Assembly: GCA_030841085.1 (NCBI GenBank) | Contig: JAVEDP010000025.1 | Coordinates: 186,001 to 250,000 of the forward strand | DNA: 64,000 nt | Reading direction: 5' to 3' | Source of the DNA: Pyrinomonadaceae bacterium | GTDB taxonomy: Bacteria; Acidobacteriota; Blastocatellia; Pyrinomonadales; Pyrinomonadaceae | Shown here: positions 3,481 through 47,468 of the stretch, one piece after another | How the letters are laid out: the number at the start of each line of letters is the position of its first letter | Position numbering within the stretch: the stretch's first letter is position 1 | Notes under the pieces: generated by a model | What the model was told of the DNA's origin: nothing | What the model saw: only the letters and a program-made list of their open reading frames with translations | The model's database searches: none | Position numbers and translations under genes: made by a program

Positions 3481-3745
3481 TTCTGGCTCACTTCTGGAGT
3501 TTGAAATCTTGAAGCTGGAATCTGAATGCTGGAATCCGGAACCTGGAACCTGGAATCTCGAATTTGAAATCTTGAATCTCGAACCTGGAATCTTGAACCT
3601 GGAATCTTGAACCTGGAATCTCGAATTTGAAATCTTGAATCTCGAACCTGGAATCTTGAACCTGGAATCTTGAACCTGGAATCTGGAATTTGAAATCTGG
3701 AATCTGGAATTTGGAATTTGGAATTTGGAATTTGGAATTTGAGAA
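3481..3745. repeat. Higher-order tandem repeat between der and tgt
   Basis: About 265 bases made of short units such as TGGAATCT, TTGAACC and TTTGAAATC. A longer unit of 63 bases is visible: the motif CCTGGAATCTCG starts at 3549 and again at 3612, and a changed copy (CCTGGAATCTGG) starts at 3675. The left end degenerates and the right end becomes a run of TTTGGAA repeats. It fills the whole gap between the der stop and the tgt start. No gene is seen in it. Confidence 0.9.
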
Positions 3746-42171: not shown

Positions 42172-45100
42172 TCAATCGCCGGCCGCACTGACGTGTTCGG
42201 GCTTCTCTTCCTGAACATCAACGTCATCCCTTGTACCTGGCTCTTCACGCACGCGTCGTCGTCGCGAACCAACCTTGCCGCGCAATCCCGTCGTCGCGGC
42301 GGCAAGTTTGCGCCAGTGCGCAGTATGCCGCAGATCATCGAGCAATGAATAAACAACGGGCGTGGCTATCAACGTCAGCATCAGCGACAACGTCTGCCCG
42401 CCGATGACAACCACTGCAATCGAACGGCGCTCTTCCGCACCCGGACCAGTACCCAGCGCCAACGGCATCATGCCGGCCACCAACGCCAACGTCGTCATCA
42501 GAATCGGTCGCAACCGATCTCGATTTCCTTGCATGATCGCTTCGTAGCGTTCGATGCCTTTGGCTCGCAAACTGTTCATGTGATCGATTTGCAGGATGGA
42601 GTTTTTCTTCACCACACCAAACAGGACCAGGATGCCCAGCGCGGAATAAAGATTGAGCGTGTCGCCGGTGGCCCATAACGACAGCAGCGCAAATGGGACC
42701 GAAAGCGGCAAGCTCAACAGAATCGTAATCGGATGTATGGTGCTTTCAAACTGCGACGCCAGAATCATGTACATGAAGATGATCGAGAGGATGAACGCCC
42801 AGATGAATTCAGTGAACGTTCTTTCAAGCTCGCGCGCGCGTCCGGATACGGTAGTTGTATAGGCCGCCGGTAGATGCATGTCCGCCGCGGCGCCGCGCAA
42901 CGCTTCAATGCGATCGGCAAGCGCGTAACCCGGCGCTACCGAAGCGCGCACCGATGCTAAACGCTCGCGATCGAGCCTGTCGATGCGCGAAGGACTCGTG
43001 TCGCGCTTAATCTTAACCAGGTTATCGAGCCGCACCAGTCCGCCGCGCGACGAGGGCACGTAAAGCCGTTGAATGGTCGCGACATCGCTGCGATCCCGTT
43101 CATCCAGACGCAACTGCACGTCATAGTCTTCGTTGATCGATTCGTCACGAAAGCGCGATGCCCGGTCTTCCCCGCCAACCATTAAACGCAAGCTGGTGGC
43201 GATATCGGAACTATCAACGCCGAGGTCCGCCGCGCGTGCTCGATCAATCTCGACACGCAGCTCCGGCTTATTAAGTTTTAATGTCGTGTCGGCATCGACT
43301 ATCCCGCCGAGCGTTTGCGAGCGTCTCATCAATTCGTCGGCGTAGCCCGCCAATGCAACGACGTCGGGTCCACGTAGATTGAAGTCGATGTCGAAACGAC
43401 CGCCGGCGCCAAAATTGAACGAGGGCGCGTTACGAACTCCGGTACGCATCGGCGCATATTTCCGCAAGCGCCGGCGCACCTCGAGCATCACGTCCTGCTG
43501 ACTATAGTTTCCCTTAAATGCGTTCAGCGGACTTCCACTCCTGGTTTCTGTCCACAGGCGGCCCAGCGAGAAAGTACGTTCTTCATGCGGCGCGATGCGC
43601 ACGTACACGTTGCCCTGATTGACGCCGCCCAAAAATGAACCGCCGGCGTTGGCCAACACCATGCGCACGCCGGACGTCGAACTAATGTCTTTTTCGATCG
43701 CCTGCATCGTCTCGTTCATGACCGCGAGGTTTGTGCCTTCTGGTCCATTCACGCTGACTTCAAACTCCGCCTCGTCAACATTCGTCGGAATGAACTCCTG
43801 CTTGACGGCGCGGTAAAGTGGAATGCTCGACAATACAACCGCGATCGCTATCACGGTAACGGCAGCGCGGTGGCGCATGGCGGAAGCCAGCATGACCGTG
43901 TAAGCATTATCGATCCAACGATAGAAACCCTTGCGTGAACCGGGCGCGCTGTGCCCGCCGCCCTTACCGGCGTCGTCAACGCGGATAAGGCGCGAACTCA
44001 TCATCGGCGTCAACGTGAAGGAAACCAGCAAGCTAACAAGAATCGCAACTGCGGCGGTGATGCCGAATTGATAGAGAAACCGGCCCGAGATTGACGACAT
44101 GAACGAGACCGGCAAAAAGATGACAACCAGCGACAGCGTCGTCGCCAGCACCGCCAGGCCGATGTCTTTCGTAGCCTCGCGCGCGGCCTCTTTCGGCTCA
44201 ATTTTTTTCTCTTCAATGAAGCGAAAAATATTTTCGAGAACGACAATCGCGTCATCGATGACCACACCTACCATCAGCACCAGCGCCAGCATCGTCACAC
44301 TGTTGAGCGTGAAGTTTAGCGCCCGCATCACGCCGAATGCGGAAATCAACGAACACGGAATGGCAACCGCAGCGATGATCGTCGAACGCCACGAACGCAT
44401 GAACAGAAGCACCACCAGGCTAGCCAGAATGCTGCCCAGCACCAGGTGCTTTTGGATTTCGTGCAGCGCGGCCTCGATGTAGCGCGACTGGTCGCGAATC
44501 ACTTCCGCCTTCACGTCCGCCGGCAGTTGGCTGACAACACGCGGCATTTCCCGCTTGATTCCGTTGATAACATCGATGGTGTTGGCGCCCGACTGGCGGC
44601 GAATCTCCAGCGTCACGGTCGGCACACCGTTGAGGCGTGCCAGCGAACGCTGTTCCTTGGTGCCGTCTTCAACGCGGCCCACGTCGCGAATGCGAATCGG
44701 AGAACCGTTAACATTTGCGATGACCAGGTCTTCGAACGCGCGCGGATCGGTATAACGGCCCAGCGTGCGCAACACTAATTCTTCACGGCCCGTGTTTACA
44801 TTGCCGCCGGGTACGTCCGCGTTTTGGCGGCTGAGTGCGGAGTTAACGGCGGTTACCGGAATCTGATACGCGGCCAATCGTTCGGCGTCGATCCAAATGT
44901 TAATCGCGCGATCCAGTCCGCCAACGACGCGCACTTCGCCAACGCCGCCAACGCGTTCCAATTGCACGCGCACAGTCTTGTCGGCGAATTCAGTCAACTC
45001 GCGAATCGAACGATCGCCCGAAAGCGCGATCGTGATGACCGGCGTGCTGTCGTTATCAAACTTTTGGACTATCGGCGGGGTGGCATCGTCGGGCAGCGAG

Positions 45101-45453
45101 CGTCCCAGGCTGTTCACGCGATCGCGCACGTCCTGGGCCGCCGATTCAAGATTTCGATCAAGCTTGAAGGTAGCAATAACGATCGAGGTGCCCTGTCCGG
45201 AGATTGAACGCAGCTCGTCGATGCCATCGACCGTGTTAACCACTTCTTCGATTTGTTGCGTGACGAGAGATTCAACTTCTTCCGCGGAAGCGCCGGGCAG
45301 GTTGGTGCGGATGCTAACGGTGGGAAGATCAACCGAGGGAAACCGATCGACACCGAGCCTGAAGTAACTCGCGGAACCGACCACCACCAGCGACAACACA
45401 ATCATCGTGGCGAAGACCGGACGGCGAATACAGATTTCGGCTAGTTTTTGCAT
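42172..45453 (-). CDS. RND efflux pump permease (AcrB/HAE1-type)
   Basis: A 1093-residue inner-membrane proton-driven exporter. It begins MQKLAEICIRRPVFATMIVL, with membrane helices at about 12-30 and two six-helix bundles. GVVIDDAIVVLENIFRFIEE holds the paired Asp that carry protons in the AcrB family. Two large periplasmic loops sit between. The C-terminus has an extra charged tail of about 50 residues (ATTGLRGKVGSRRRRVREEP). It works with the adaptor at 45992; no TolC-type channel is nearby. A four-helix-bundle gene now lies between the two. Substrate unknown. Confidence 0.95.
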   Translation of the reverse strand: MQKLAEICIRRPVFATMIVLSLVVVGSASYFRLGVDRFPSVDLPTVSIRTNLPGASAEEVESLVTQQIEEVVNTVDGIDELRSISGQGTSIVIATFKLDRNLESAAQDVRDRVNSLGRSLPDDATPPIVQKFDNDSTPVITIALSGDRSIRELTEFADKTVRVQLERVGGVGEVRVVGGLDRAINIWIDAERLAAYQIPVTAVNSALSRQNADVPGGNVNTGREELVLRTLGRYTDPRAFEDLVIANVNGSPIRIRDVGRVEDGTKEQRSLARLNGVPTVTLEIRRQSGANTIDVINGIKREMPRVVSQLPADVKAEVIRDQSRYIEAALHEIQKHLVLGSILASLVVLLFMRSWRSTIIAAVAIPCSLISAFGVMRALNFTLNSVTMLALVLMVGVVIDDAIVVLENIFRFIEEKKIEPKEAAREATKDIGLAVLATTLSLVVIFLPVSFMSSISGRFLYQFGITAAVAILVSLLVSFTLTPMMSSRLIRVDDAGKGGGHSAPGSRKGFYRWIDNAYTVMLASAMRHRAAVTVIAIAVVLSSIPLYRAVKQEFIPTNVDEAEFEVSVNGPEGTNLAVMNETMQAIEKDISSTSGVRMVLANAGGSFLGGVNQGNVYVRIAPHEERTFSLGRLWTETRSGSPLNAFKGNYSQQDVMLEVRRRLRKYAPMRTGVRNAPSFNFGAGGRFDIDFNLRGPDVVALAGYADELMRRSQTLGGIVDADTTLKLNKPELRVEIDRARAADLGVDSSDIATSLRLMVGGEDRASRFRDESINEDYDVQLRLDERDRSDVATIQRLYVPSSRGGLVRLDNLVKIKRDTSPSRIDRLDRERLASVRASVAPGYALADRIEALRGAAADMHLPAAYTTTVSGRARELERTFTEFIWAFILSIIFMYMILASQFESTIHPITILLSLPLSVPFALLSLWATGDTLNLYSALGILVLFGVVKKNSILQIDHMNSLRAKGIERYEAIMQGNRDRLRPILMTTLALVAGMMPLALGTGPGAEERRSIAVVVIGGQTLSLMLTLIATPVVYSLLDDLRHTAHWRKLAAATTGLRGKVGSRRRRVREEPGTRDDVDVQEEKPEHVSAAGD

Positions 45454-45460
45454 TCGAAAA

Positions 45461-45492
45461 AAGTGCTGAGTGCTGAGTACTGAGTACTGAGC
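45461..45492. repeat. Heptad repeats, left flank of the four-helix gene
   Basis: AAGTGCTGAGTGCTGAGTAC, continuing TGAGTACTGAGCG, eight bases before the RND pump start codon (minus strand). Inverted copies are at 45952-45990. Confidence 0.88.
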
Positions 45493-45498
45493 GTTGAA

Positions 45499-45891
45499 TC
45501 AGTTTGTCGATTCGAGTTTTGCTCGTTGCCGCTGAACTGACGCTCTCAGGCCACCTATAATTCTTCCGACCTCAATTGCTTCACGCATCAGCGAGTCGAA
45601 CGCTTCCGCCGGGATGTAAGCAACATCCAACGCGATATAGAGTTGATTTCGTAACTCTGCGCAAGATCCCTTCGCCATCACCAAAAACCGATGAAATTCT
45701 GCCGCACCGCCTCTTTCAAATCCTTCGGCGATGTTGGACATAGTTGAGACGGCGGCCCGCCTAATCTGATCCTTCAGACTATAGTCACGCGCAAAGTTGC
45801 CCTCGTTGGTTGTTTTGTAAATTCGACCAGTAAGCTTACGCGCCTTCTGCCACGCAATCAGGTCTTCGAACTTTTCAACTTTCTTCGACAT
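45499..45891 (-). CDS. Four-helix-bundle protein (23S rRNA intervening-protein-like)
   Basis: A 130-residue soluble protein. [20 protein letters not shown], then [20 protein letters not shown], then [20 protein letters not shown], then [20 protein letters not shown] are the S23/IVP family, known from intervening sequences in 23S rRNA genes and from diversity-generating element accessory proteins. The gene lies alone between RND adaptor and pump on the same strand, framed by inverted heptad repeats. GAGGAGGG upstream of the ATG is a strong ribosome site. Role unknown. Confidence 0.9.
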
Positions 45892-45951
45892 TGCGAATCC
45901 CTCCTCTTCGTTCTGAATTGAGGGTGATAATTAGACTGTACCGCTCAAGCT

Positions 45952-45990
45952 CACTCACTCAGCACTCAGTACTCAGCACTCAGCACTTTT
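45952..45990. repeat. Heptad repeats, right flank of the four-helix gene
   Basis: CACTCACTCAGCACTCAGTA, continuing CTCAGCACTCAGCACTTTT, one base before the adaptor stop codon on the minus strand. Inverted partner of 45461-45492. Confidence 0.88.
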
Positions 45991-45991
45991 C

Positions 45992-47230
45992 TTATTGCAC
46001 TACCTCCACCGCCATCCCCGACTGCAAATTCCCGGGGTCGACGATCACCTGATCGCCGACGTTGACGCCGGCGACGATCTCGGTCCAGTCGCCATTGCGG
46101 CGGCCGGTGGTGATGGGCTTCTCGAGGGCCTTGCCGTTTTGCACGACGATGACTTTTTCAATCCCGGCGAAAGTCACGATCGAATTGTTGGGCACCGTGA
46201 TGGCCATCTTCGCGTCGTTGGTGACGATCTCAGCCTTTGCAAACGAACCGGGCCGCAACAGTCCGTTATTTTGCACGTCGGCTTCCACCATCAGCATGCG
46301 ATTCTGCGCGGTGATCACCGGACTCAATCTTTTGATCTGGCCGAGGTAAACATTCGCGTCGCCGGCGACAGTGACGCGAACACTTTGTCCAAACCGCACC
46401 GTGCTCGCATCGCGCTCGGGAACTTCCGCCTGCAGCCGCAACGGATTCATACGAACAATATCGACGACCGGCGCGCCAGCCGCGAGGTATTCCCCGACGC
46501 TCGCTCGCTTCTGCTGCACGATTCCGTCAAGCGGCGCATAGACCGCCGTGTCGCCGAGTTGCTGGCGCGCTAGTGCCAATTCAGAACGACGCTGCGCCAC
46601 CATCGCCTGGCGATTGCGAATCTCCTCAATGGCGTCCTGATAGCGGCTGACTGCAACTTTGTAGGTCGCATCAACGGTATCAAATTCCGATCGCGGGACA
46701 ATTCCCTGCTGAACAAGTTTCGCGGCGCGGTCGCGGCTAACCTTTGCTTCGTCCAGAACCGCGCGCGCCTGCCTGACGGTTCCGGTTTGTTCGGGATTAA
46801 CGGCGTCGTCTTTCCCATCAGGCGACAGGCCCACACGCGCGCGCGCCTGGGCAAGCGCCGCTTCCGCTTGTTGCACACGCAGCTTGTAGTCGCTGGCCTC
46901 AACCTGCGCCACCATCTGGCCGCGCCGCACCACGCTGCCGAGATCGACAGAGATAGTACTAAGGCGGCCGGCAACTTTTGCGCTCGCGGTTGACTGGTCA
47001 TACGCCGCGAGCGTGCCGTTCGCAGTTACAGTTTCACCAAAAGGCATTTCTTCGACGCGCGCGGTCTTCACTTGGCGCGCGCCTTTGTCGGCGGCTTTGT
47101 TTTGACTCGCGTCGCTCTGGTACCCGCTCTTACAACCTGCGGCGAATAACAGCAGGACCAGCGGTACGACATAAATAGCGTGGAGCAATTTCGAAAGAAA
47201 CGGGTGGAGAGATTCGTTTGACGATTGCAT
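45992..47230 (-). CDS. RND efflux periplasmic adaptor (membrane fusion protein)
   Basis: A 412-residue lipoprotein that links the RND pump to an outer-membrane channel. The signal ends in the lipobox FAAGC near residue 33. Barrel-sandwich and alpha-hairpin domains (GRLSTISVDLGSVVRRGQMV, then VEASDYKLRVQQAEAALAQA) are followed by the beta-barrel LQAEVPERDASTVRFGQSVR and the C-terminal domain (DWTEIVAGVNVGDQVIVDPG). The ATG at 47230 is preferred to the TTG at 47239. A tandem repeat array lies directly upstream, so the operon promoter must lie in or beside it. Confidence 0.93.
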   Translation of the reverse strand: MQSSNESLHPFLSKLLHAIYVVPLVLLLFAAGCKSGYQSDASQNKAADKGARQVKTARVEEMPFGETVTANGTLAAYDQSTASAKVAGRLSTISVDLGSVVRRGQMVAQVEASDYKLRVQQAEAALAQARARVGLSPDGKDDAVNPEQTGTVRQARAVLDEAKVSRDRAAKLVQQGIVPRSEFDTVDATYKVAVSRYQDAIEEIRNRQAMVAQRRSELALARQQLGDTAVYAPLDGIVQQKRASVGEYLAAGAPVVDIVRMNPLRLQAEVPERDASTVRFGQSVRVTVAGDANVYLGQIKRLSPVITAQNRMLMVEADVQNNGLLRPGSFAKAEIVTNDAKMAITVPNNSIVTFAGIEKVIVVQNGKALEKPITTGRRNGDWTEIVAGVNVGDQVIVDPGNLQSGMAVEVVQ

Positions 47231-47304
47231 GCGCGGCAATCTTAACCCAGGCGGTGAACAGTGACGAAACTGGCGAATGAAAAGAGAAAGAGCGGGGCTG
47301 CCGG

Positions 47305-47468
47305 AGTGGCATAGACTTTAGTCTGTGCTGAGTGGCATAGACTTTAGTCTGTGCTGAGTGGCATAGACTTTAGTCTGTGCTAAGTGGCATAGACTTTAGT
47401 CTGTGCTAAGTGGCATAGACTTTTAGTCCGTGCTCACTCAGGGGACACAGACTAAAGTCTATGCCACT
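47305..47468. repeat. 26-bp tandem array of the CATAGACTTTAGTCTG family
   Basis: Four units of 26 bases start at 47305, 47331, 47357 and 47383, with CATAGACTTTAGTCTG at the core. A fifth 27-base unit (47409) has one extra T and one change. After a short spacer an inverted copy closes the array (47446-47468). It separates the RND adaptor start from the DUF5916 stop. Confidence 0.93.

Follow-up and report, generated by a model that had tools for sequence, protein, structure and literature searches.

What is a gene for an S23/IVP four-helix-bundle protein doing alone in the gap between the two genes of an RND operon, framed by inverted arrays of a seven-base repeat? The gene lies in a 64-kb stretch of DNA (hereafter the window), and a preliminary description of this stretch read the gene and its repeats as an insertion unit that had moved as a whole. 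We consider that the feature is probably a copy of a small transposon-like mobile element that encodes nothing but an S23/IVP protein, matched to the element's own repeats, and that also has gene-less derivatives.

The IVP unit in the RND adaptor-pump gap

The layout of the element is a left heptad array, a leader with a ribosome-binding site, the S23/IVP gene, and a right, inverted array of the same heptads (Table 1; ORF start codons were set by rule of thumb). The IVP protein scores 121.9 bits against PF05635 (curated cut-off 33.8) and 114.5 against TIGR02436 (curated cut-off 24), and its solved relatives by sequence are 2gsc (XCC0516) and 2rld, with five chains in each. The arms are inverted and 33 nt each, and TRF reports period 7 in both (45462-45491 and 45956-45987); the score and the near-complete complementarity of the arms bear out the earlier reading of an IVP gene alone in the gap and framed by inverted heptads. 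The reported fit to the neighboring genes is also confirmed: the first heptad on the pump side begins at 45462, with eight bases between it and the pump ATG (45453), and a single base (45991) separates the other arm from the adaptor stop codon (45992-45994). The gap itself, given as 537 bases, measures 538.

Table 1. Features of the IVP unit and its host genes in the window
Feature	Coordinates	Strand	Remarks
S23/IVP four-helix-bundle gene (PF05635/TIGR02436)	45499..45891	-	130 aa, ATG start, AGGAGG ribosome-binding site
Upstream arm (gene orientation), TGAGTGC/TGAGTAC heptads	45958..45990	.	One base from adaptor stop codon
Downstream arm (gene orientation)	45459..45491	.	97% complementary to upstream arm
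Leader between arm and IVP gene	45892..45957	-	Contains ATCACCCT box and ribosome-binding site
Host flank: RND periplasmic adaptor (HlyD_D23, HlyD_3)	45992..47239	-	Profile matches
Host flank: RND pump (ACR_tran)	42172..45453	-	Profile matches

Between the arms lies the IVP ORF without a transposase gene. The predicted RNA fold pairs the arms in one long terminal helix that encloses the whole ORF (z -8.3). Complementary ends around an S23 ORF are also a property of the intervening sequences (IVSs) of 23S rRNA; the site of the window unit is an intergenic gap and not a 23S rRNA helix. The unit is the only inverted lag-7 pair in the 64-kb window, which holds zero inverted pairs at the other lags from 4 to 13, and zero inverted pairs are found in five shuffled versions of the window.

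Matched arms at other IVP loci

A profile search of the contigs of the same genome yields 17 PF05635 matches, 15 of which are surrounded by inverted arrays. The preliminary description had expected the gene-plus-heptad unit at other loci of this genome, which holds for the armed layout but not for a fixed end sequence: the heptad is nearly copy-specific (GTAAACT, GGGCAGT, CAAACAG, AAGTTCC, GTTTCGA, TGAGTAC and AGTTTCA are among those found), and the copy at C16:47538 has eight-base units. In 15 of the 17 copies, the match between the upstream flank and the reverse-complemented downstream flank beats all cross-pairings, the one exception being an additional match between the window copy and that at C22:122658. 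The latter, in the gap-pgk junction (L018:2656-2958), is the closest paralogue of the window gene, with the same heptad and 88% identity over the shared part; it is frame-shifted near its end, and its orthologue in G011 is intact. The two arm-less copies (C9:130165 and C19:259695) have longer C-termini and an abutting next gene in simple ORF calls. The sequence ATCACC, counted by eye, precedes 9 of the 17 genes, that of the window among them. We rejected a conserved general leader motif, as ATCACCCT, found in this genome, and ACCTCAC, found in relatives, are both restricted in range.

We extended the search to 158 loci testable for arms, comprising the 17 of this genome, 63 from relatives (taken with higher scores first from 117 further PF05635 matches, fragments included in the 117), and 78 from a named set (the testable members of the best 80 of 589 confirmed relatives in a scan of genome contigs) that spans many bacterial phyla and some archaea. 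At a threshold score of 31 or more, matched arms are present at 103 of the 158 loci: 15/17 in the genome itself, 49/63 in relatives, and 39/78 in the named set, where a first run with slightly different limits found 43/77. The other 55 loci, two of them among the 17, fall below the threshold. The best lag at the armed loci is 7 in 86, 8 in 15, 9 in one, and 5 in one. Of the cross-paired flanks in the three sets, 2.9%, 2.9%, and 0.8%, respectively, score this high, as do 6 of 305 other genes in 400 kb of the same genome (simple ORF calls), none of them with lag-7 arms. Chance as the origin of the arms is rejected by the window shuffles, the cross-paired flanks, and the 305-gene control. Rfam at the gathering threshold gives no match, and so no 23S rRNA context, for a subset of 20 from the 80 named loci that consists mostly of arm-less ones, and the phage records searched contain no match.

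The repeat unit and the protein vary together

For comparisons of the heptads we kept 81 of the 103 elements, excluding scores below 31, periods other than 7, and weak periodicity. These clean elements carry 68 distinct heptads, which rejects one fixed terminal sequence for all copies. Protein identity is correlated with heptad similarity (Mantel r of 0.39 in the genome itself, 0.40 in relatives, and 0.21 in the named set, with 0/2000 permutations as high). Base composition is an insufficient cause of this link, which survives removal of the G+C content of flanks and heptads (r of 0.39, 0.38, and 0.14, with 0, 0, and 12 of 2000 permutations as high, respectively). Named pairs below 60% identity give an r of 0.10 (50/2000 permutations as high); with values of 0.10-0.14 in the named set, the signal across phyla is therefore weak but present. 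Vertical inheritance is an insufficient cause as well, because the link persists at sites without homology of the flanking genes: in pairs of this kind, heptads with at most one mismatch are found in 13/22 at 65-80% protein identity, in 18/96 at 55-65%, and in 19/1591 below 35%.

The protein tree, which is built from few columns and has many unsupported forks, displays heptad themes common to whole clades (TGAGTRN; RAGTTYC; GTAAAT; GGCAGNC), and octads are found mainly in two clades. A period of 7 or 8 requires 6 changes on this tree versus at least 10 in 500 shuffles, and the armed or bare state tracks it weakly (38 changes; shuffles with a mean of 44.6 and a minimum of 36). These comparisons indicate that the repeat unit co-diversifies with the protein, in both sequence and length. 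We infer that the simplest account of the match between heptad and protein would be movement caused by the IVP protein itself.

The two arms of an element also resemble each other in the order of their variant heptads. In 62 ungapped elements with mixed heptads, there are 1544 matches versus 1389 expected under permutation, and 47 elements exceed their own mean with 1 falling below it, although this test leans towards agreement because the arms are picked by best alignment. The gap-pgk element of G011 carries a TGAGCAA variant in the same order in both arms that is, by eye, absent from the G000 copy. Matches of 8 or more to an element's own heptad reach 17% in the leader and 26% in the trailer versus 1-2% expected, and 18% versus 8% inside the IVP gene. 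An internal repeat template was rejected as an explanation, since the excess matches in leader and trailer look like decayed arms.

Filled and empty junctions

The element is dispersed to many sites, and it is present or absent at one and the same gene junction among relatives. We located 12 orthologous RND junctions in relatives (68-89% pump identity), two of them cut short by contig ends, and the IVP gene is missing from all of them; in no distant relative was the gene seen conserved at this junction without the repeats. The empty site anticipated by the preliminary description is thus found as far as the gene is concerned, but the junction is often occupied by a gene-less heptad hairpin rather than bare. 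The RND gaps of G003, G004, G019, G015, and G016 are short (21-69 nt) with no hairpin; those of G002, G010, G007, and G013 hold gene-less hairpins with other heptads; and the 265-nt gap of G017 is of another make. At the gap-pgk junction, 11 loci contain both genes, of which G000 and G011 have the IVP element and nine do not, several of the latter holding gene-less hairpins of other heptads. IVP copy numbers in 13 genomes of the genus, several of them incomplete, are 17, 7, 8, 1, 1, 8, 7, 0, 13, 7, 3, 12, and 15. The gap-pgk junction of G007 (L240), which is occupied by heptad elements in congeners, contains an inverted repeat of a non-heptad type, near-perfect and about 30 nt long.

The S23/IVP family is found on cyanobacterial plasmids also (36 plasmid records in all). 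A GGGAACA-armed element occupies the traM junction of two Nostoc plasmids; this junction is empty (52 nt) on two plasmids of Nostoc sp. C057 and contains a gene-less hairpin with related heptads and an unchanged left boundary on the ATCC 53789 plasmid. The two filled elements are identical at 486/489 bases (99.4%), and their flanks at 82.6% and 94.8%. The element of L316 is placed exactly in the TAATG stop-start overlap of its empty relative, and the gaps of other empty relatives are 3 nt (L272), 12 nt (L325), 3 nt (L321), 73 nt (L319), and about 40 nt (the nrd element). A test for arms at ten more plasmid IVP loci gave scores above 31 at five, two of these with a lag-7 value above 0.7 and one scoring 32 with a lag-7 value of 0.71; the rest of the ten are under the threshold or barely periodic.

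Filled and empty versions of a site, as looked for in a DNA transposon, therefore occur both in relatives and on plasmids. The proposal that the unit moves with its repeats gains support from its absence at orthologous junctions, its recurrence elsewhere, and the sharing of identical or near-identical heptads by closely related IVP proteins at unrelated sites. An apparent target duplication of 8-10 bp at L321 is an isolated plasmid case, and a pooled test of 102 elements for target-site duplication does not depart from the null.

Two plasmid contexts are described here in their own right. On pANA02 of Anabaena sp. 90 (L323:1201-1569), the cas6 and cas4 genes of a type I-D CRISPR operon are separated by a heptad-armed IVP gene; the IVP gene is missing from a plasmid that is 99.3% identical in the matched parts but has a wholly different intergenic sequence. 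On Nostoc and Calothrix plasmids (L272, L317, L319), IVP genes adjoin tyrosine recombinase genes, an adjacency that seems incidental because relatives have the recombinase without the IVP gene.

Gene-less hairpins

Heptad hairpins without an IVP gene exist as a population of their own. Our survey of 400 kb, in stretches chosen along the contigs of the genome, found 18 inverted pairs (17 distinct) with period 7 and 0 to 3 at other lags, so that gene-less hairpins are commoner than IVP-bearing ones. Their heptads match those of the elements: 16/17 differ at no more than one base from an IVP heptad of this genome or its relatives, and 10 of these are identical to one, versus 50% within one mismatch for shuffled letters. 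The pattern CTCAGNACTCAGNACTCAG, built on one heptad, has 136 hits in this genome, 85 in G006, and 25 in G011, all of which have IVP genes near such arrays, and no hits in G003, G004, G007, G008, or G010; a reversed control pattern has 14 hits in G000. Gene-less hairpins of one heptad in this genome have, by eye, unrelated interiors and are therefore at odds with simple internal deletion. One heptad gives 191 array hits in G017, a genome with zero PF05635 matches; arrays can therefore abound without a detectable IVP gene. The G017 arrays (L278-L303) form a near-uniform heptad-armed family of nested palindromes of 118-456 bp, and several contigs end within them, as if the family were freshly multiplied.

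These hairpins could be a separate, self-spreading repeat, multiplied by slippage, template switching, or a REP/Y1-type enzyme, with the IVP genes as passengers that settled inside. The numerical excess of gene-less hairpins, their presence with other heptads at the same junctions in relatives, and the IVP-free arrays of G017 agree with such an origin, as does the frequency of Y1 transposases (15 in this genome, 0 inside the window unit), whose copy number correlates weakly with that of IVP genes (rho 0.43, p 0.06, with kinship and completeness ignored). We nevertheless consider it unlikely: heptad and period track the IVP clade, the heptad even at unrelated sites, which counts against the passenger view, since a passenger should be indifferent to the heptad around it. 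G010, moreover, has three IVP genes and no Y1 transposase, and G007 has 15 Y1 transposases and no IVP gene.

Position, selection, and candidate enzymes

The elements have a marked preference of position. Both neighbors are called for 93 elements (simple ORF calls): 86 have their upstream gene on the IVP strand, against a baseline of 0.67 (p 7e-9), and 68 their downstream gene, against a baseline of 0.65 (not significant). The median distance from the outer arm edge to the neighboring ORF is 4 nt on the upstream side and 10 nt on the downstream side. The protein is under purifying selection, with dN/dS values of 0.07, 0.11, 0.07, 0.18, and 0.19 in five unsaturated pairs (seven more are saturated at synonymous sites) and of 0.07 between the window gene and its C22:122658 paralogue.

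The strand preference and the close fit to neighboring ORFs, together with the terminal helix that encloses the ORF, might instead point to a host-serving module of RNA processing or regulation, in which the hairpin separates the messages of an operon as an RNase III site, as in the 23S rRNA IVSs, and IVP binds the hairpin. Such a role is, in our view, decidedly unlikely, because given junctions are not conserved, with congeners lacking the unit or carrying other heptads, one genus member has zero copies, the gap-pgk copy of the same genome is frame-shifted, and the nrd copy, carried by a Nostoc plasmid, lies in antisense orientation.

No transposase, recombinase, or reverse transcriptase (RT) is recognized in the unit, and RT and Y1 copy numbers across genomes single out neither as a partner. 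A retroelement, whose RNA would be copied by an RT with IVP acting like its relative Avd, which works together with an RT (PMC10053308), has in its favor the sense-strand bias, profile scores of the IVP protein for Avd that are both under the cut-off (23.3 bits for PF22296 and 19.9 bits for DivGenRetAVD), and a weak correlation of IVP and RT copy numbers (rho 0.46, p 0.04, with kinship and completeness ignored). It is highly improbable, as no RT matches are found in G005 and G006, with eight and seven IVP genes, and the 17 IVP genes of the window's genome are accompanied by one weak RT match (PF00078), on another contig. The window unit also has no RT, template, or variable repeat of the kind that defines a diversity-generating retroelement.

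Returning to the mobile element encoding its own IVP protein, we hypothesize that this protein, a pentamer in the known structure, recognizes the cognate heptad arms as a DNA or RNA hairpin and would be needed for the spread of both the element and its gene-less derivatives, with cutting and joining performed by host enzymes or by an as yet unrecognized activity. Elements would persist mainly as sense-oriented insertions between co-transcribed genes, immediately behind a stop codon; at such positions the hairpin might do little harm and IVP could be read from the host operon. The arms may stay matched through copying or pairing between them while the heptad drifts.

Comparison with known systems

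The Coxiella 23S rRNA IVS is described as having a terminal stem of 28 bp and, ahead of its S23 ORF, tandem heptamers (GACAGAT); the structure of S23 is given as a pentamer (PMC4990558). The IVSs of Coxiella and Leptospira share with the window unit the protein family and an ORF within complementary ends, but the window unit lies between protein genes, belongs to a family of many copies per genome, and has arms that consist wholly of heptads and track the protein lineage. By analogy, and judged from the published description of the Coxiella IVS, the 23S rRNA IVSs would seem to be a special form of the heptad-armed IVP element.

Heptameric intergenic repeats are reported as GGGAATC in Xanthomonas, GGGGA(C/T)T in Nostoc, and TAACTGA in Beggiatoaceae, with 70-75 convergent heptad pairs in xanthomonads (PMC4692102; PMC4679880). 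Like the arms of IVP elements, these are seven-base tandem units that adjoin stop and start codons (PMC4692102; PMC4679880), and the geometry of the Xanthomonas heptads at these codons is like that of IVP elements (PMC4692102); unlike the arms, they are described, in the portions of these papers available to us, without a link to S23/IVP (PMC4692102; PMC4679880), and the corresponding portion of PMC4692102 states no general association with mobile elements. Our literature search, which covered few subscription journals and preprints, turned up no paper that ties S23/IVP genes in general to heptad arrays, the Coxiella IVS excepted. MITEs and insertion sequences resemble the IVP elements in their inverted ends, gene-bearing and gene-less forms, and dispersed copies, but the IVP unit has neither a transposase nor a target duplication signal and its ends vary between copies. 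Avd of diversity-generating retroelements belongs to a related four-helix-bundle family by profile similarity, differing in the points given above.

The link between lineage and repeat joins three subjects: the S23/IVP proteins, a widespread group without an established function; the origin of the 23S rRNA IVSs; and heptameric intergenic repeats described without an agent. Repeats that track the encoded protein offer a concrete lead on S23/IVP function, which becomes testable in that the target sequence would be predictable from each IVP protein; the element would be a minimal one of about 500 bp if the protein proves to be the mobilizing factor. More speculatively, and with more doubt than confidence, we suggest that these elements could be a bacterial and archaeal class of mobile element without transposase, recombinase, or RT, in which a pentameric IVP reads a seven-base unit (eight in some clades), perhaps one per subunit, and directs copying of the hairpin while arms and protein co-evolve; the 23S rRNA IVSs and the unexplained heptads of Xanthomonas, Nostoc, and others might then be its traces.

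Two further tandem arrays are present in the window: a direct array of 246 bp with period 7 (TCTGGAA theme) at 3493-3738, which has no inverted partner, and five copies of a 26-bp unit, 97% alike, at 47304-47434 between the adaptor gene and the next ORF.
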